Positions 21,156-30,845 are shown, counted from the stretch's first letter. The stretch: 64,000 bases of DNA from Bdellovibrionales bacterium (GCA_020628165.1 JAHDFM010000010.1:2183-66182), one strand, 5' to 3'. Program-made: numbers and translations. The notes: generated by a model from the letters alone, not told the origin.

Positions 21156-22016
21156 CTATAGTTGAAGGTCTCCGAATCCAACTTTATTCGTAAGTGATTT
21201 TATCTTTTCTATTTTGAAACTTTGTTTTTGATGCCACTTGATATCTTGTTTTAATTCGTTGACTTGTTGTTTAGTGAGGTGGCCTGTTGTCAGTTCAATG
21301 GCTTTTTGTACCCAATTGGCTGAGGTGAGGCTTTTGGTGAATTCAGTGCTTGACTCAATGACTTGTTTTTTTTCTGCCATGCTGAGTATGACACTTTTGG
21401 TTTGAGCCACTCCCATGCCGTGATGGTTGACTTCGTCAGCTAGAATTTGTGTTAAGGCGTGTTTTAGGTTTTGATCTTTGCAACCTGCTTGCAGCGCTTG
21501 GTAATGCATAAGACCAAAGCCTTCTAAGATCACTTGTATAGTGAAGGTGAGGTTGTGCTTGCTATGACTGTTTAAACAGTTAGATAAAGCTGTTAACAGT
21601 GGGTGGATTGAAATATCCGTCGGGTGCCCAGCGAGTAAGAAGGGCTCAATCAGCCTGCGGTGTCTGACTTCATCACCGGCAAAAAGAGTGTACAAAGACT
21701 TTTCTTCGACACTGTCAGCAAGTTCAATCATTTTGGCTCCGTAATTGAGGCCAAATTTTTCGATGAAGTAAATCAGTTCTAAGCTCCATTGATTTAAGCG
21801 GAAAATCACTTGAGTTTGCTGCTCTAAGCTCAGTGATTGAAATAGCTTTGATTGATGTAGGTCGTAATGCTCAGCCGACCAGTAGGGGAGAGTTTTGGAA
21901 GGCACTTTGTCCATTGGAACAAGTTTGTTCAGAATTTTATTTAAAGAGGTGTTTTCATCTGAATGTTCACACAGCATGCTATGATCGAGTTGTTTTTCCA
22001 ATCTGTCTCCTTTCAA
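21156..22016 (-). CDS. ferritin-like diiron protein, possible oxygenase
   Basis: A 286-aa helical protein with two ExxH motifs, EVRH (Glu116, His119) and EVNH (Glu195, His198), and further Glu residues on predicted helices (near 80, 105 and 165). This is the ligand set of a carboxylate-bridged diiron four-helix bundle. Such proteins include fatty-acid and N-oxygenases and rubrerythrin relatives. It has no signal peptide. Its 5' end overlaps the hexapeptide-protein gene upstream by 38 bp, so the two are translationally linked. The substrate is unknown. Confidence 0.7.
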   Translation of the reverse strand: MKGDRLEKQLDHSMLCEHSDENTSLNKILNKLVPMDKVPSKTLPYWSAEHYDLHQSKLFQSLSLEQQTQVIFRLNQWSLELIYFIEKFGLNYGAKMIELADSVEEKSLYTLFAGDEVRHRRLIEPFLLAGHPTDISIHPLLTALSNCLNSHSKHNLTFTIQVILEGFGLMHYQALQAGCKDQNLKHALTQILADEVNHHGMGVAQTKSVILSMAEKKQVIESSTEFTKSLTSANWVQKAIELTTGHLTKQQVNELKQDIKWHQKQSFKIEKIKSLTNKVGFGDLQL

Positions 22017-22629
22017 TTTTGCCTAGCATGGCTCGGCTGCCAGAAGGTAAGAAGGTGTGGTCCGGAAGTTCCGTGCCAGGTCCTAGGTTAGAATTAGCTC
22101 CGACAATGGATTTTTCACCAATTTTAATTTTCTTAACAACAGAGGTAATCTCGTTGTCTTTGCGTTTGAGGATATGGGCTCCCACTAAAGAGAAGTCTCC
22201 AATGAAAGCGTAATCTTCAATTTCAAGAAGGGAGCGATCATAAATCACTGAGTTAGGAGTCCAGATCACTTTTTTGCCAACCCGACTGCCCCATAACCTG
22301 AGCCAAACACTGAAAGCACCAGGAATTACAATGAGAACTCTTTCTAAAAAAGGAAAGGCAATGAAGTTGTACTGAAGGTAATGGGAAATCAACCAAGTGG
22401 AGCCCTCTTGTTGTTGCGGGCCGATTTTTTGTTGACCCTCAGGCACTTTTAAGAAGGTGAGTCGCCAAACGAGAAGTGGTAATAGATAAATCGAGAAAAG
22501 AGCTAGAGCAAAAAAGGCAAAATTCAAATGTTTAAAAAAATAAAAAAGACTTAAGCTAGATAACAACAAATGAGAGCAGGGGAAGAATCTAAATAGCAGC
22601 TCTGTTTTTTTGGAGACTTTTTTGTTCAT
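21979..22629 (-). CDS. membrane-anchored hexapeptide-repeat (left-handed beta-helix) acyltransferase-like protein
   Basis: A 216-aa protein. The N-terminal half has two hydrophobic segments (about 18-50) and an amphipathic stretch. The C-terminal half has hexapeptide-type turns (VGKKVIWTPNSVIYDRSLLEIEDYA split over the helix rungs; FIGDFSLVGAHI; KIGEKSIVGANSNLGPGT). These build the beta-helix of O- and N-acyltransferases. Acyl donor and acceptor are unknown. It is placed between a FeeM-like gene (4 bp upstream) and the diiron gene (overlapping), so it very likely belongs to one pathway with them. Confidence 0.65.
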   Translation of the reverse strand: MNKKVSKKTELLFRFFPCSHLLLSSLSLFYFFKHLNFAFFALALFSIYLLPLLVWRLTFLKVPEGQQKIGPQQQEGSTWLISHYLQYNFIAFPFLERVLIVIPGAFSVWLRLWGSRVGKKVIWTPNSVIYDRSLLEIEDYAFIGDFSLVGAHILKRKDNEITSVVKKIKIGEKSIVGANSNLGPGTELPDHTFLPSGSRAMLGKIERRQIGKTTRS

Positions 22630-22633
22630 AACT

Positions 22634-23305
22634 TTATAGCCCTAAAGTGTAGTTTAAACGTTGAGTGAGTTTTTCAGTACTGGTTTGTGCCGACTGAGTG
22701 TTTGATAGAATGCTTTCAGTGCTGCCAGTGATGATGTCATAGGTGATTTTTCGGCCAGGGTGAAAGCTAGTGCCTACTTTTTGTAAACCAAAACGGCTGA
22801 ATAGCTTTAAGCTTTCAGGCTTGCAAATACCTATCAGCCCTTGGCAACTTTCTTTACTAAAGATCTCTAACCCTGACACACACAACAAATATTGAACTAC
22901 GAGCACTAGAGTTTTTGAGTCCATCGCTGGGTTAGTCACAAGGCGACCAATCTCATAATAGTTTTTGTAATCATCAAATTGGAAATCATGGTTATCATAA
23001 GATTCAATTTCAAATGGACTAGCAACAAAACGCAAAGAGGCGAGCACTTTATTTTTACAAGAAAGTGAGAAGATGATCCCACGTTGATCGAGTTTATGTT
23101 CTAAAGCACGCTCCTTCAGTTTTAATAAATGTGGTGCATTTTTCAGGTAGTAGTCTGATCGGTGGCGCCATATTTGTTTGTAGAGCATTGATTTTTCTAG
23201 GTTTTGATTTTTTAAAATATCAACCTTAAGTGTCTGCGAAAGACGTTTCTGCATAGAAAGTGTTTCTAAAACAGCCTCGGACTGCCTAAGATCGGCTATC
23301 TTCAT
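22634..23305 (-). CDS. FeeM-like N-acyltransferase (GNAT/autoinducer-synthase fold)
   Basis: A 223-aa cytoplasmic protein. An N-terminal helical part is followed by RSDYYLK, GIIFSLSCKNKVLASLRFV, the acidic/Arg segment YYEIGRLVTNP, and a C-terminal LKLFSRFGLQKVG followed by a tyrosine strand. This order resembles FeeM-type N-acyl amino acid synthases and LuxI-like enzymes, which join an acyl-ACP to an amine. The assignment is by pattern only and needs a profile search. It is the first gene of a three-gene tight operon. Confidence 0.55.
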   Translation of the reverse strand: MKIADLRQSEAVLETLSMQKRLSQTLKVDILKNQNLEKSMLYKQIWRHRSDYYLKNAPHLLKLKERALEHKLDQRGIIFSLSCKNKVLASLRFVASPFEIESYDNHDFQFDDYKNYYEIGRLVTNPAMDSKTLVLVVQYLLCVSGLEIFSKESCQGLIGICKPESLKLFSRFGLQKVGTSFHPGRKITYDIITGSTESILSNTQSAQTSTEKLTQRLNYTLGL

Positions 23306-23547
23306 GTTTAATAAATGATAATATAATTCTAATTATATAAAAATGGGCAAAAAGTACCACAAATTAAATAGAAGCAATCATCCTTTGAAAGCAAAAGCCA
23401 CATAAAGAGACAAGCGACACACCCAAAAAAACAAATTGTACCACCCAAAAATTTGTATAAAGATCCTAAGACAAAAGTCCAACCAGCAATAATTCACCAA
23501 CAAAGCACATGACTCTGAGCGAACTATTGTATTCGGGAAGAAGCATT

Positions 23548-23572
23548 GTCACTGAGCAAAGCGAAGGACCTA
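23548..23572 (+). repeat. dispersed REP-like repeat, copy 3
   Basis: GTCACTGAGCAAAGCGAAGG followed by ACCTA differs at only a few positions from the copies at 10038 and 36543. It lies just beyond the 3' end of the Coq4-like gene, in the 282-bp gap before the FeeM-like gene. The rest of that gap (23306-23547) is AT-rich with no gene seen. Confidence 0.75.
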
Positions 23573-23587
23573 AACAAGCACCACTTA

Positions 23588-24238
23588 TTACCGACAACCC
23601 AAGCATAAATCTTTTTTTAATTCAGCAAGGGGAGTGTTTAACTGCTCTTCCCAATGAACAGCCAGCAAAGCTTGAGTTGATTGACCCAGCTGCCAGCCAC
23701 GTGTCACAGTATTAAAGAGCTTTGGCAGCTCTGTTCTTTTTTTGCGATAAAAATGTATGAAGGCAAGACAAGTGATCAGCCCTGCCAGCGGAGTTTTTAA
23801 CTGAGCGTAATAAAAGGCAATGAGTCCCGCTTCGCCTTCTTCGCTAGTATCAAAATCTGTTACGACATGCCAAAGATCATGAGTTTGGCGCAGACGAAAC
23901 TGCAAGTAGTCGCTGTCGTTGGTAACTTGATTGGTGAGTTTTTTGTAAAAGCCTGGGTCTAAGTTGTTTTCCATTAAATAAAGATGATAGCTATGGCCTA
24001 AAGACCCTTCGGGATAAGAACTCAAGTTTTGTGACAGTAAGGAGTCATGCAAACCAATTTTTTCAGAGATCATTTTATCAATAGATGCGTTTTTTCGGAG
24101 TTCAGTTAAAAACAGCTGTTTGTTTTCAGGGTCAGTGATCACATTTCCAAGTTTTAATACAGAGTCGACTTGCCTTGGGTCTTTTAAGTACTTTAAAATA
24201 GCTTTAAGGGTGAGGAATTTGTGAATCAGTTTTTTCAT
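23588..24238 (-). CDS. Coq4-family protein
   Basis: A 216-aa helical protein with the Coq4 metal-binding signature HDxxH-x11-E (HDLWHVVTDFDTSEEGE) near its middle, followed by a hydrophobic helix (LAGLITCLAFIHFY). In eukaryotes Coq4 acts in ubiquinone biosynthesis, on ring decarboxylation/hydroxylation and as a scaffold. Bacterial relatives also occur in natural-product loci. Nothing else for ubiquinone is nearby. The same-strand FeeM-like, hexapeptide and diiron genes follow after a 282-bp gap. A role with them is an inference from position. Confidence 0.75.
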   Translation of the reverse strand: MKKLIHKFLTLKAILKYLKDPRQVDSVLKLGNVITDPENKQLFLTELRKNASIDKMISEKIGLHDSLLSQNLSSYPEGSLGHSYHLYLMENNLDPGFYKKLTNQVTNDSDYLQFRLRQTHDLWHVVTDFDTSEEGEAGLIAFYYAQLKTPLAGLITCLAFIHFYRKKRTELPKLFNTVTRGWQLGQSTQALLAVHWEEQLNTPLAELKKDLCLGCR

Positions 24239-24371: not shown

Positions 24372-24971
24372 TTGCAATTGATCCTAAGAAGTAATCCCAT
24401 GGAGTGGGTGTATTTTGTTTTGACCTATGCTTGTTTCTTGTCTTTCTGGCACTCAAGTTTATTTGTGTTTATAAAATCAGATCACAATAAAACCTTTGTT
24501 CGTTTTAGCATTAAAATTCTAAGTATAGTGATTTGGAACATTTTGCCTTTTATGTTTTTTTTCACCAATTACAATGTTTTGAGTTTAAATTTAAATATTG
24601 GAATAGCATTGAGCTCTCTCGCTTTAGTTATTTATTGGTTTTCGGTAAGGTCAATCAAAGGACAGAAATTTCATGTCATCTCCACGACGCTAGAACAAGA
24701 GAGTGAGATATTTACGGGTGGCATCTATAAATGGATCCGTCACCCCTTTTATACGGCTTATTTTGTTTGTTATATAGGTGTGCTAATTACTTTTTCAAAC
24801 TTAGTAAATATAGTGGTCATACCGACGATCATTATTATTTACTATTTAGAGGCCAGGAAAGAAGAGTTGAGGCTGCAACAAGTCAGTGAAAATTATTCGG
24901 ACTATTCGAAGGTTGTTGGTATGTTTTGGCCTAAAATAAAAAAAGGCTTTCTTAAAAAGAAAGCCTTTTAA
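24372..24971 (+). CDS. isoprenylcysteine/phospholipid methyltransferase-like membrane protein
   Basis: A 199-aa integral membrane protein with about five hydrophobic helices and the ICMT/PEMT C-terminal signature: GGIYKWIRHPFYTAYF, then ARKEELRLQQ and YSDYSK. These enzymes methylate lipids or prenylated Cys from S-adenosylmethionine at the membrane. The start is TTG 24372 because AAGGAGGT stands 7-8 bases before it. An in-frame ATG at 24399 lacks such a site. The last codons, including the stop, lie inside a perfect 13-bp terminator stem, so the C-terminus (GFLKKKAF) is set by the hairpin. Confidence 0.75.
   Translation: MQLILRSNPMEWVYFVLTYACFLSFWHSSLFVFIKSDHNKTFVRFSIKILSIVIWNILPFMFFFTNYNVLSLNLNIGIALSSLALVIYWFSVRSIKGQKFHVISTTLEQESEIFTGGIYKWIRHPFYTAYFVCYIGVLITFSNLVNIVVIPTIIIIYYLEARKEELRLQQVSENYSDYSKVVGMFWPKIKKGFLKKKAF
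24941..24969. terminator. bidirectional terminator inside the methyltransferase 3' end
   Basis: AAAAGGCTTTCTT and AAGAAAGCCTTTT form a perfect 13-bp stem with a 3-nt loop. The T-rich ends on both strands suit termination of the plus-strand gene and of the minus-strand gene ending at 24995. It overlaps the plus-strand coding sequence. Confidence 0.85.
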
Positions 24972-25631: not shown

Positions 25632-28600
25632 TCAATACCAAATAGCTTGCAAATAAGGCGCCAGTTCATTTAGGTAACTTATGTACGTCAAATGAAATGC
25701 GTTGAGTAAGCTTTTTAGTATTAAATGGTTTGTAACCTTAACTATTTCTGTCTTAGCATACTCAATACTATTTGAATCTCCGCAAACTAATACAGGAACT
25801 TCAATTTCGTCACCACTTTCTATCATGTAAGAAAACTTTTCACTCGGTAGAGAGCCGTTACTGTCCTCTATAAATGCATTTATTTCATTCTGAGTGCATT
25901 TTCCCATAATTATGCTTTCAAGAATGTTTTTTGAGTAAAAACGCTGTTTAGATTTAAGAAGATCAAGCGCCATATTATATTGAGCTTTTAGGAAGTTTAA
26001 TTTTTGTTCATGATCTACATTTTTTGCGTAGAAAGAGTTTCCTATATGCTCCCATCGAGCAACATACTTTCTTCTGTCATTTGTGTAACTAAGGATTGTC
26101 TTCAGCATAGGCACTAAAATGGGTGTGAATTCAGTGGTGAAGCCAAGTCTTTGTTGGAAGGTTTGAATTCGTTTAAAGTAGTCAAAAGCTCTTTTATAGG
26201 TTTCTTTCATGATACCATCATCGTTTCCATGCAAAGTTCTTGAAAAATTACTTAAAGATAACCTATCCATGAGACTTCTTTCCATAGAAGGGTTAAATTC
26301 ATAAAACGCCTTTGTGCCAACTAAAGGCTTAATAAATCTACTTCTAACAAAATCAATATAATCAGACTCGTAGTCATCCCAAATGTGTTCAACTTGAGGT
26401 AATAAAAAGTCACTCCACCAACTAAATTTAAAGCTTGAAAAGTCTTCAATAAATTTTTCGTTAGAAGCCTTGGCTATGTCTTCAGCGCTGAGTGTTTCTT
26501 CATTCATTTCAGTATTTGTTTCTGTATCATCGCTGACTTGAGTTTCAGATGTATCTACATCTGAAGAATCAAGATCTTCATTGTCTTGAGTCTCAGCAGT
26601 AGTGACACTTTCTTCATCAGCAGTTTGAGCTTCGTCATCGTTGTATGAATAAACCCCTGAAATCATGTTATCAAAGACATAAATGGCAAGGTTATTGTGC
26701 TCTCTCTTGCGTTCATCATGCCAATAGCCATTTAAAACGTCATTGTATTTAATCCCTAACCTCTCCATATCTTCTCTGTAGTTTTGTCTGCCACTAATTT
26801 TATCGTCGGTAACTAAAGAACACATATGACTCTTACCAGGGCTTGCAATGATGCTTGGAGGTATAAAACTGATGGCCCCACCAGACTCCTTTCTACTGAA
26901 ATCATTGATAACTTCAATAAGTGGTGAGTTTTCATCTTCTGGGTCAGAAGGAATTCTTTTAGTTAAATTTGCTCCGCAGGCCATTTGAAAGACTAAGTAA
27001 TCAACAATATGTTTAAATTTAATTTGTTGCACAGACTTTGGATATTTATCTATATCAGCAAGTAAAGGCTGTCCTTTGGAGTCGTCAGTTAAATTATGTA
27101 AAGCTTCTAGAGAAAGTCGTTGTTCAATTTCTTCTCTTGAGAACTTATCTTCGTTAGCTTTCAAGAATATAAAATACTTGTAAACAGATTCAGCGGTTAA
27201 ATAAACTTCGGTAAACTGAGTTGTAAATTCTTGCCAATTAGCTAGCTTATGAAAAAATGGATCGAGCAATAGTCTTTTACGTTGATTGTTGTAGACGATA
27301 TCATCTTCAATCATTAAGTGAGGGTTCTTATCGTACTCGCAGCTGTCGTAAGCCTTGTCCATACGTCTTTTTATTCTGTTATAGGCATCACTTCCTTTTG
27401 GTGGGAGCTTGCTGAGTTGCTTTTCACAATCATTTGCTAAAACAGTGTAATCATAATCTTGCTCAGAGTTGATTTGTTTGTCAACAGAGCTCAATTTTTC
27501 TAAATGTTCGCTGTAGGATTCAACATGTGAACTGTACATACTTCTATTTTGTTTGACGTACTCATCAATAGAAAGACCAAAGTAGTTAAAGTTTAATGGG
27601 TTCCATAAGTTTTGAATGACTGGATTGATAGCATTATCAATGGCCATGATGATCATGATACTTCCAATGAATTTTACAATACTCGTTTTACCTGCCAATT
27701 TTATCGCTTTTTTAGCTGCATCCAAGCCAGACTTTTTCTTTAGATCAAAAAATTGTGCTGTTTTATTAGCGGCAGCTTTATATGTTCCTACGGTGACGGC
27801 AGTTGATAAGGTCATAGAAAGAGCATAAGGGGTGTAAGACATGAACTTGTCTTTACTGTTCCACCTTTCATAGGCAATGTTGCAAGCTCTTTTACGAATT
27901 TCGTCATTATCCGTCGTGTAGCAAGTGTGTATGTCGCCACTAGTAATATCGCTTATTAGGTCTAAAAAGAAATGAACAAAGTAAGTAGCTCCAGCTACAC
28001 CACTCAAAAGTTTAAGAGCTTGGTGCCTTTGAGTTGATGATAGCGGTTTGTCAGTGTCAATAGGTTCAACAGGTGTTTGTAAAGCCTTTTTATTTTGCTT
28101 GTTTTTGTAAATGATATGACCCGCAGTCATTGGCCCTAGCAACATATGAGTTCTTGGGTCTGTGAATCGTTCATACATTTGTTGCCATGCTAGTGGATTG
28201 TCTTGAATGTATTGAGCACTAAATAAAGTTGCAGTTAAATCGCCAAGCGCATAGCCTCCATAAAAAAGGGCAAAGCTTTTTATAACTTGTCCAAAATGTC
28301 CACGTCGAGTTCCTGGAGGAAATTCTTTGTCGACAGCTGGGTTGTTCCTAAATTTTTCATAGCGATCACTGCTGTCATTGTTACTTAACCACGGGTCATC
28401 AGCTGCAGAGTAAGGAGCTTTAGCCTTTGCATTTTGACCGGTTTTCTTTTGATCATTGGGGTCAATAGTTTCAGTGGCCGTATTAGAGTTTCCTTGATCC
28501 AAACGACCTTTTTCTGTTGAGCTTTTGTCCGGTGTTGAATCTTTCCCTTTGAATTTGTCGACAAGACTTCTCCATAGGTCTTTGAATGTTTGTTTGTACG

Positions 28601-30845
28601 AATTTTTTGCTAATGTTTCGTCCCAGTTGATTTTCCCTCTCTCTCTTTCTAAGCGGTTCTGTTGGCGACTTCTTAAGTCATCACTTGAGAAGTTCTCGTT
28701 TTCAACAGAGTTTCGAATGTTAGGGTTTGAGCTATCAAAAAGGTGTCTTTTGTATTTGAGGGGAGTGCCCTGCCTTATGCTGATGAACCTTCTAGCTACT
28801 CCAGAGCGAGTGTCTTCAATGAAGTCTACACCTGTTGCGTGCTTAATATTTAGAATGTCATTGTATGCTTTTTTAGCCTTTTCACTATTGTGTCCGGAAG
28901 TTCCGAAATCACCAGCCTTAACCATAGCGTTGTAGGCATGTGAGGCCTGTTGTCCGAGAATGAATATGCGATCGAAGAGGCTAGATTTTTTTGCAGAGTT
29001 TCCCTTTGCTTGAAGGTACTCTGTTTTAAACTTCTGTAAGTTCTCTAATGAGCTTTCTAATGCTTTTCTTCTGTTTTTCTCAGATCCATAAGCTTCATTT
29101 GCTCTTTTTAATTGGTCTTCAAAAAACTTTTCAGCAGTTTTTTTATTTGCTTGCATTTTTTGGTCTGAAGGATCTCTAAGATCATCTGGATCTCTTAAGT
29201 CCTTTAACTCTGGTTGACCTCTTAAGAACTTTTCAAAATCAGCACGTGCTTTTTGGACACTTTCTCTATCACTGTCGATCATTCTTGATTCAAAATTCAT
29301 AGCATTATTGTAATTACGTATGACCTCCTGTCCTTTGTTATATGCTTCAACTTGTTGATTAAGTCTTTCAAGGTCACTCATATTAGGAGTATTATTGATT
29401 TCATTAACAAGAGTTTTGAATTCACTTAATGAATTTCTAAAATTATCTATACTGTTTCTGTAAGCACGGTTTCTTCTTTCAGCTTTTGATTCCTTTGGCT
29501 GAGCTGGCTTGCTTTCTTGGGTAGATGTTTGCCTTACGACCTCTTTGTATGCGTCTAGGTAGAGCTTGCCTTCTCCCACACGGTTTGGTTGTGTGCCTGG
29601 GTGTTGGTCAAACTGAGTATACAGTGGTTCTAGTTGGGAAATAATTAGTTTCAATTGATTCCCTACTGCTTTTAACTCTGTTGGAGTCAGTGTTTTGTTT
29701 CCTGAAATTCCACTTTTGGTAATCTGAGAGTGCAAACTAGAAGCTTTCTTGTTGAGTTCATTAATTTTATCTGTAATGACTCTATGTTCTGCAGCGATTG
29801 CATTTCGTCTTTCGATTCTTTGTCTATTTTCGTTTGCCTGACGAGTATCTCGCTCTTGTTTTTTTACTTCTCTTTGTTTCTTGTCAGCTTCTTCTTGAGC
29901 CCTTTTATTACTTTCATCTACAGCAATTTTTTCAGCGCCTTGTAGCCTTCTATCAATGTTCGCAACCTCATCTTTAAATGCAGTGACCATAACTTTATTA
30001 GATTGTTTGTTTTGTCTAGATACGAAAGGGTGATCATTATATTGAGTGGCAAGAGTTTCTAAAGTTTGTAAAGACTTACCAAGTTCAGCTCTTTTTTCAA
30101 GAAGTTCACTCTTATATTTTAAATAGTCATTTTGGTAATCAATATTGTTAATGTCATTGATCAATTGTGTAGTTGCTCTGTGAGCAACAAGAATTTTTTC
30201 ATTGAGACTAGTTAAAGCGGCTTGCTTTTGTGCTTGTTCATTACTTAGCCTTTCAGCTCGTGCTTCTCTATCAGCTGCAGCTTGCTCGGCAAGTGCTTTT
30301 CTTTTTTCCGCTTCATCAGCTATTTGTTTTTCGCGACGTATTTTTTCTTCAGCTGCTTTTTTTTCATCTTCAAGTCTTTGTCTGTCTTGAGCTTCTTTTG
30401 CTAATTTAGCATCATTTAATTGACTTTCTAATTCTGTGACGGAGTTGATCTTTGCGACAGGGCCTGTATTTTTAATGATATCAACTCCATATCTGTTAAC
30501 GACGTTTTGGATATTACCAATTGTTCTGTTTGAGTAACTTCGTTGGTCATTCATGGCTTTTTCAAGATTTTCATTTAAATATTGTGAGCGGCCGTCAAGT
30601 TCAGAATTTATAGCTTGAACTTGTAACCCAACTTCATGAATTTTAAAGAGAGTTTCTGCAGAAATTTGTTTTCCATTAGTGATATTTTGAGAGGTAATAA
30701 TAGAGTGTAGTTTTTTGTTGGCCTCATGAAGTCGCTGGATATCTTCTCCAATAACCTGACGGTGGGCATCAGCAAAATCTGGATTAGCTGATGCAAATTG
30801 AATTGGCAAAAAAAGTACTAATAATAAGACCGCTATTGTTTTCAT
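25632..30845 (-). CDS. giant exported coiled-coil and membrane protein (1737 aa), unknown function
   Basis: I do not recognise this protein. It has a signal peptide (residues 1-20, ending ASA). Helical and coiled-coil repeats span about 25-740, with Glu/Lys/Arg/Ala-rich TolA-like stretches around 150-215 and 300-350. Two of the ~100-residue units are visibly alike (LHSIITSQNITNGKQIS near 46; LHSQITKSGISGNKTLT near 370). A Ser/Asp/Asn-rich linker follows, then four or five hydrophobic segments (about 855-880, 945-968, 1002-1024, 1050-1074), an acidic Asp/Glu/Thr linker (about 1400-1455) and a helical C-terminal domain. This predicts an inner-membrane protein with long periplasmic parts. No enzymatic motif is seen. 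Confidence 0.8.
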   Translation of the reverse strand: MKTIAVLLLVLFLPIQFASANPDFADAHRQVIGEDIQRLHEANKKLHSIITSQNITNGKQISAETLFKIHEVGLQVQAINSELDGRSQYLNENLEKAMNDQRSYSNRTIGNIQNVVNRYGVDIIKNTGPVAKINSVTELESQLNDAKLAKEAQDRQRLEDEKKAAEEKIRREKQIADEAEKRKALAEQAAADREARAERLSNEQAQKQAALTSLNEKILVAHRATTQLINDINNIDYQNDYLKYKSELLEKRAELGKSLQTLETLATQYNDHPFVSRQNKQSNKVMVTAFKDEVANIDRRLQGAEKIAVDESNKRAQEEADKKQREVKKQERDTRQANENRQRIERRNAIAAEHRVITDKINELNKKASSLHSQITKSGISGNKTLTPTELKAVGNQLKLIISQLEPLYTQFDQHPGTQPNRVGEGKLYLDAYKEVVRQTSTQESKPAQPKESKAERRNRAYRNSIDNFRNSLSEFKTLVNEINNTPNMSDLERLNQQVEAYNKGQEVIRNYNNAMNFESRMIDSDRESVQKARADFEKFLRGQPELKDLRDPDDLRDPSDQKMQANKKTAEKFFEDQLKRANEAYGSEKNRRKALESSLENLQKFKTEYLQAKGNSAKKSSLFDRIFILGQQASHAYNAMVKAGDFGTSGHNSEKAKKAYNDILNIKHATGVDFIEDTRSGVARRFISIRQGTPLKYKRHLFDSSNPNIRNSVENENFSSDDLRSRQQNRLERERGKINWDETLAKNSYKQTFKDLWRSLVDKFKGKDSTPDKSSTEKGRLDQGNSNTATETIDPNDQKKTGQNAKAKAPYSAADDPWLSNNDSSDRYEKFRNNPAVDKEFPPGTRRGHFGQVIKSFALFYGGYALGDLTATLFSAQYIQDNPLAWQQMYERFTDPRTHMLLGPMTAGHIIYKNKQNKKALQTPVEPIDTDKPLSSTQRHQALKLLSGVAGATYFVHFFLDLISDITSGDIHTCYTTDNDEIRKRACNIAYERWNSKDKFMSYTPYALSMTLSTAVTVGTYKAAANKTAQFFDLKKKSGLDAAKKAIKLAGKTSIVKFIGSIMIIMAIDNAINPVIQNLWNPLNFNYFGLSIDEYVKQNRSMYSSHVESYSEHLEKLSSVDKQINSEQDYDYTVLANDCEKQLSKLPPKGSDAYNRIKRRMDKAYDSCEYDKNPHLMIEDDIVYNNQRKRLLLDPFFHKLANWQEFTTQFTEVYLTAESVYKYFIFLKANEDKFSREEIEQRLSLEALHNLTDDSKGQPLLADIDKYPKSVQQIKFKHIVDYLVFQMACGANLTKRIPSDPEDENSPLIEVINDFSRKESGGAISFIPPSIIASPGKSHMCSLVTDDKISGRQNYREDMERLGIKYNDVLNGYWHDERKREHNNLAIYVFDNMISGVYSYNDDEAQTADEESVTTAETQDNEDLDSSDVDTSETQVSDDTETNTEMNEETLSAEDIAKASNEKFIEDFSSFKFSWWSDFLLPQVEHIWDDYESDYIDFVRSRFIKPLVGTKAFYEFNPSMERSLMDRLSLSNFSRTLHGNDDGIMKETYKRAFDYFKRIQTFQQRLGFTTEFTPILVPMLKTILSYTNDRRKYVARWEHIGNSFYAKNVDHEQKLNFLKAQYNMALDLLKSKQRFYSKNILESIIMGKCTQNEINAFIEDSNGSLPSEKFSYMIESGDEIEVPVLVCGDSNSIEYAKTEIVKVTNHLILKSLLNAFHLTYISYLNELAPYLQAIWY

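Follow-up and report, generated by a model that had tools for sequence, protein, structure and literature searches.

A conserved gene cassette of Bdellovibrionota that may make a modified N-acyl amide lipid, with a Coq4-family gene in the place of a diiron oxidase

Coq4 proteins are associated with coenzyme Q synthesis, so what would a Coq4-family gene do beside genes for an N-acyltransferase (NAT), a hexapeptide acyltransferase-like membrane protein (Hex) and a ferritin-like diiron protein (dFe)? The question arises from a Bdellovibrionales genome (GCA_020628165.1, JAHDFM010000010.1:2183-66182), of which we analysed a stretch of 64,000 nucleotides, here called the window. Bdellovibrionota is a phylum with predators among its members. 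An earlier note, made from the sequence alone, had proposed that these genes form a pathway for an N-acylated and oxidised lipid or signal. In this study, we compared the locus with related loci and placed its proteins by profile, structure and phylogeny.

Gene layout and conservation of the cassette

The genes and the start-site features are located in the window as follows.

21156-22016, minus strand: dFe, longest open reading frame
21156-22001, minus strand: dFe as revised, ferritin-like diiron protein of 281 aa, TTG start
21999-22013, minus strand: ribosome-binding site AAAGGAG (22013-22007) and TTG start (22001-21999) of dFe, within the end of Hex
21979-22629, minus strand: Hex, 216 aa, hydrophobic N-terminal part and left-handed beta-helix acyltransferase-like domain
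22634-23305, minus strand: NAT, FeeM/LuxI-like GNAT-fold N-acyltransferase, 223 aa
23588-24238, minus strand: Coq4-family protein, 216 aa, HDLWH-x11-E metal site
24372-24971, plus strand: ICMT/PEMT-like membrane methyltransferase, 199 aa, divergent from Coq4

NAT, Hex and dFe had been described as packed with a 4-bp gap and a 38-bp overlap. The 4-bp spacing of NAT and Hex was confirmed, but the 38-bp overlap of Hex and dFe presupposes the longest dFe reading frame. A TTG at 22001 lies five bases past a GGAG (22010-22007) and would give an overlap of 23 bp, which was also found in the loci L007, L008, L010 and L048. dFe probably starts at this TTG, with an overlap of 23 bp rather than 38 bp. 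The gap between Coq4 and NAT was 282 bp in the window and 77-499 bp over the cassettes; given this gap, Coq4 may be its own transcription unit. No Rfam element was matched in the cassette region. The cassette is adjoined in the window by a gene for a 1737-aa coiled-coil-rich, secreted-looking protein (25632-30845), a homologue of which was absent from the related cassette loci read.

The order ICMT-like gene (divergent), Coq4, NAT, Hex and dFe was found in five genomes, namely in the window and in L007, L008, L010 and L049, and a sixth genome (L048/L009) carried an otherwise identical cassette without Coq4. We designated this architecture type A. The amino-acid identity to the window proteins was about 30-54% per protein across the type A loci, and their flanks had genes in common in three pairs only, two of them from genomes of the same genus. 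Since the order is kept in several genomes while the flanks are almost unshared, the type A gene set is real and far above chance. Among 369 genomes of the phylum, NAT was present in 24, dFe in 52 and both in 18 (Fisher p = 2e-12, relatedness ignored). The genes are thus a conserved cluster and not scattered in relatives, as the earlier note had required of its proposal. It had also placed a methyltransferase-like gene divergently next door; this holds, but the gene is a member of the cassette and not a mere neighbour, being divergent and adjacent in all six type A loci. Neither a carrier protein nor an AMP ligase was found in type A. In L008 (4069-10027), the cassette lies within a run of mur/fts cell-wall genes, with murG-like and ftsW-like genes on either side and most cassette genes on the strand opposite to the run.

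Coq4 and the ICMT-like gene might be no more than neighbours of a NAT-Hex-dFe operon and act elsewhere, as the wide gap between Coq4 and NAT and the lack of Coq4 in L048 would allow. However, the position of both genes is constant in five genomes while the flanks vary, the cassette Coq4 copies form one clade (support 97/96), and Coq4 excludes another oxidase from the cassette, as described below. We see a small chance for this explanation.

Families of the encoded proteins

The Coq4 protein of the window matched PF05019 above cut-off (E 4.1e-27) and, in the PDB, Coq4-type 3msq (E 1.6e-34) and 6e12 (E 9.4e-31). The HDxxH-x11-E motif was intact in all five cassette copies, which bears out the earlier assignment of a Coq4-family gene with an intact site. 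The protein resembles the Coq4 of coenzyme Q synthesis in family, fold and metal site. It differs in that it belongs to a locus-specific clade tied to an acyltransferase, and in that its host has a prenyltransferase for menaquinone, not ubiquinone: the UbiA-family genes of the genome were CyoE and MenA only, MenA lying within a men operon, and a UbiA-type (ubiquinone) prenyltransferase was absent from it. With MenA but not UbiA in the host, the genomic evidence indicates that the window Coq4 probably has no role in ubiquinone synthesis.

Modification of a quinone by Coq4, a COQ7-like diiron protein and the methyltransferase would explain the Coq4 family membership, and dFe did give a marginal match to COQ7 (PF03232, E 0.34). 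This match reached 11 bits against a cut-off of 23.5, and dFe was rejected as a COQ7. The UbiA-family content of the host also argues against a quinone, as does the lack of Coq4 in the sister architecture type A', and to our knowledge neither an acyltransferase nor a hexapeptide acyltransferase has a step in quinone synthesis. We give very little credence to this reading. A second conserved setting of Coq4 was seen in L100 (5618-8131) and L108 (7005-9545), where a ferritin-like protein with a DEHRH motif, a FabD-like acyltransferase (PF00698) and Coq4 are consecutive; L109 and L112 also carry the pair of FabD-like protein and Coq4.

The AlphaFold2 models of NAT and dFe were built from four sequences each. 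The NAT model showed GNAT topology (pLDDT 81.5), and its top PDB match in Foldseek was the acyl-homoserine-lactone (AHL) synthase RpaI (6wn0, E 6.2e-7, 13% identity); numerous other GNAT enzymes ranked below it. The NAT family profile matched the AHL synthase 3p2f (E 0.003). FeeM (PF21926) was matched by 5 of 15 family members (best 1.3e-5) and Acetyltransf_5 by one, and the window NAT alone gave no FeeM match against Pfam. The earlier description as a FeeM-like, acyl-transferring GNAT is therefore supported by the relatives and the AHL synthase matches, but not by a FeeM match of the window protein itself; the 223-aa protein probably falls within, and not outside, the FeeM/AHL-synthase part of the GNAT fold. 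Searches with NAT or dFe as single proteins against the PDB returned nothing useful. In PHROGs, NAT, Hex and Coq4 had no informative match, and the matches of dFe and the ICMT-like protein were families without known function.

The matches to RpaI and 3p2f would also fit a diffusible signal, for which NAT would act as an AHL-type synthase and the other enzymes would tailor the autoinducer. A related acyltransferase on a Deefgea plasmid, described below, is accompanied by the AdoMet-related families DUF3419 and SpeD, which points the same way. However, AHL synthase and FeeM have one common fold, so that a fold match leaves the substrate unfixed, and no LuxR-type receptor gene was found beside the type A loci read. 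A signal of this kind seems to us decidedly improbable.

Hex matched Hexapep under the Pfam cut-off (E 8e-5), and the nearest solved relatives of its profile were galactoside/maltose O-acetyltransferases (E 2e-6 to 8e-6). H152, D131, R132 and W113 were kept in 39 of 39 homologues. The hexapeptide domain and the conserved His152 suggest that Hex is a hexapeptide (LbH) acyltransferase. In dFe, the predicted ligands E81, E111xxH114, E160 and E190xxH193 were all six invariant in 49 of 49 homologues. The model was all-helical (pLDDT 80.8), with weak Foldseek matches to AurF, CmlI, aldehyde-deformylating oxygenase and PaaA-like proteins (best E 1.2e-3). With an E, ExxH, E, ExxH set on a modelled helical bundle, dFe is a candidate diiron ferritin-like oxygenase. 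The ICMT-like protein matched PEMT (E 3.6e-8) and ICMT (E 6e-8) above cut-off, and its profile matched the ICMT structure 4a2n (E 8.9e-13).

Sister cassettes and the position of Coq4

Reading of 44 further loci led us to distinguish two other architectures. Type A' consists of NAT, a haem-oxygenase-like diiron oxidase (HDO; PF14518, E 3.4e-16), Hex and dFe, to which a fatty acid desaturase and an FkbM methyltransferase are often added. HDO was linked to NAT in all A' cassettes and usually followed it directly. Type B consists of Rieske oxygenases, an AurF-like protein, a ferredoxin, a fatty acid hydroxylase, Hex, a GH3 ligase, dFe, an SDR and a GNAT-like protein. Hex and dFe are common to types A, A' and B in Bdellovibrionota. 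A profile of the HDO-type NATs retrieved the window NAT at 9e-40, which assigns it to their family, and hhalign related the NATs of types A and A' with a probability of 99.9. The GNAT-like protein of type B was unrelated to NAT (probability 0.1). Homology of dFe to the AurF-like family of type B was likewise rejected (probability 0.1; positive control 99.9), and a profile test for homology of dFe to the HDO family was negative.

The distribution of the two oxidases was then compared over related loci, which are not independent events: HDO was present in 11 of 11 type A' loci and 0 of 6 type A loci, and Coq4 in 5 of 6 type A loci and 0 of 11 type A' loci. The type A cassette of L048 lacked both. 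Since a locus was assigned to A' for bearing NAT and falling outside the type A clade, this exclusion is not true by definition. The HDO relatives in the type A genomes were all distant (best E 5e-27, versus 4e-117 and 7e-117 in A' genomes). The dFe tree resolved type A as one clade (100/99) inside a supported A' group, and at least one A' branch lay outside that group. The nesting of type A among A', together with the single clade of cassette Coq4 copies, suggests that HDO was replaced by Coq4 once. The place of Coq4 is taken in the sister cassettes by another iron oxidase, which also suggests that Coq4 has a job outside coenzyme Q synthesis. The HDO and Rieske/GH3 sister clusters, the Coq4/HDO exclusion and the cassette membership of the ICMT-like gene were all missing from the earlier note.

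Further genes were observed around the sister cassettes. In nine A' and type B loci, an MMPL-family exporter was encoded no more than 7 kb from dFe, as would suit a lipid product; none was found beside type A loci. Two proteins are common to A' and B loci, an MMPL-family transporter and one of 522 aa that looks secreted. L061, L076 and L090 share a 409-aa UGT-type-glycosyltransferase-like protein near dFe/HDO genes, which suggests that some cluster products are glycosylated. In L052 (4270-5904) and L053 (1192-2826), an FkbM methyltransferase and HDO are fused in one 544-aa protein; these fusions were counted among the HDO-bearing type A' loci. One contig (G002, C79, 358-7783; L137, L164, L151) carries a NAT-like match in a 463-aa frame, a 222-aa HDO and a 387-aa UbiA-like prenyltransferase.

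Beyond Bdellovibrionota, the spread was surveyed on plasmids. Single-protein searches found no plasmid relatives of NAT or dFe, and distant NATs surfaced through their HDO neighbours: plasmids of Deefgea, Agarilytica and Pseudomonas carry homologues of NAT and HDO, the former 1-21 bp upstream of the latter. On the Deefgea piscis plasmid (L170:7254-10566), genes for DUF3419, SpeD and a small monooxygenase come after the pair, and the product of this cluster is possibly acylated and AdoMet-derived.

A proposed pathway and its relation to known systems

We propose, with a probability of about one half, that the five-gene cassette is self-contained and directs the biosynthesis of a small modified N-acyl amide lipid, with Coq4 in the oxidative slot of HDO. 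We infer the amide product, each reaction, the order of the steps and the chemical equivalence of Coq4 and HDO from families, folds, predicted ligands and position in the cassette. With acyl-ACP or acyl-CoA as the donor, NAT would N-acylate an amino acid or amine with a fatty acyl chain. Coq4 would carry out an O2-dependent oxidation at its HDxxH-x11-E metal site, most plausibly an oxidative decarboxylation, as its slot and family suggest. Membrane-bound Hex, judged by its fold, may O-acylate the intermediate, comparable to OlsA in ornithine lipids. dFe could add a further diiron-dependent hydroxylation or desaturation, and the ICMT-like enzyme may methylate a carboxyl, hydroxyl or amine. Our best reading is that an orphan pathway yields an N-acyl amino acid or aminolipid in modified form. 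Because human COQ4 is a reported oxidative decarboxylase (PMC11495197) and the HDO UndA is one as well (PMC13108848), the simplest reading is that Coq4 and HDO would share an oxidative step. Type B has a GH3-type amide ligase and not NAT, so that two unrelated amide-forming enzymes go with one Hex and dFe.

An alternative is an ornithine-lipid-like membrane aminolipid, in which NAT would correspond to OlsB, Hex to OlsA (3-hydroxyacyl O-acylation), dFe to a hydroxylase and the ICMT/PEMT-like enzyme to a head-group methylase, with Coq4 tuning the lipid. The reaction types predicted from the genes do coincide with the set of the OlsBA/C/G pathway, although the enzyme families differ. The PEMT match of the ICMT-like gene, the hydrophobic N-terminal part and O-acetyltransferase-like domain of Hex, the Acetyltransf_5 match of one NAT relative and the lack of an exporter in type A loci are all consistent with such a lipid. 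However, the presence of NAT in just 24 of 369 phylum genomes is patchier than expected of a core membrane lipid, the closest NAT fold is that of an AHL synthase, and we know of no ornithine-lipid pathway with Coq4 or HDO. We consider the membrane aminolipid unlikely and keep to the small N-acyl amide lipid.

No published description of this gene set was found in the open-access literature, which agrees with the earlier remark that no known pathway has it; the only related work found there was a paper on Rieske/CylC clusters and the N-acyl tyrosine clusters. The FeeM/NasY N-acyl amino acid synthases (fee, stieleriacine, tyrazolone; PMC12479983) also place a FeeM-related GNAT-fold N-acyltransferase beside tailoring genes. 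Tailoring there is by a nitroreductase and a ThiF-like protein (PMC12479983), whereas the type A and A' cassettes pair NAT with Coq4 or HDO, with Hex, with a diiron protein of a new family and with a methyltransferase. Known HDOs (UndA, BesC, SznF; PMC13108848) are akin to the NAT-linked HDO of all A' cassettes, whereas the window cassette has Coq4 in its stead; acyltransferase, GNAT and COQ4 never occur in the main text of this 2026 HDO review. Orphan 'Rieske-containing' clusters of CylC homologues in cyanobacteria combine an AurF-like protein, several Rieske proteins and a fatty acid hydroxylase (Eusebio et al. 2021, PMC8406957). Type B has this gene combination, with AurF-like proteins for which CylC homology is not implied, and is linked to the window by Hex and dFe. 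The window cassette itself differs in lacking Rieske, AurF-like, fatty acid hydroxylase and GH3 genes, and no Rieske or CylC/AurF-like gene was found in or beside it.

A more specific form of the proposal, which we hold only tentatively and regard as rather doubtful, is that Coq4 displaced HDO and acts on N-acyl amino acids by itself, as an oxidative decarboxylase or hydroxylase that depends on a metal and O2, and that Hex-dFe is a phylum-wide core for oxidised lipid amides. If this is true, Coq4 would be a general oxidase fold recruited for natural-product chemistry, and the oxidised lipid amides would be a new family. The chemistry of COQ4 was long obscure; only recently was it reported, for human cells, to be an oxidative decarboxylation. 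A bacterial Coq4 in the position of HDO would offer a small system in which to test this chemistry away from the coenzyme Q complex. The cassette also links several uncharacterised lipid clusters of Bdellovibrionota and, with five genes, is compact enough to serve as a target for product discovery.
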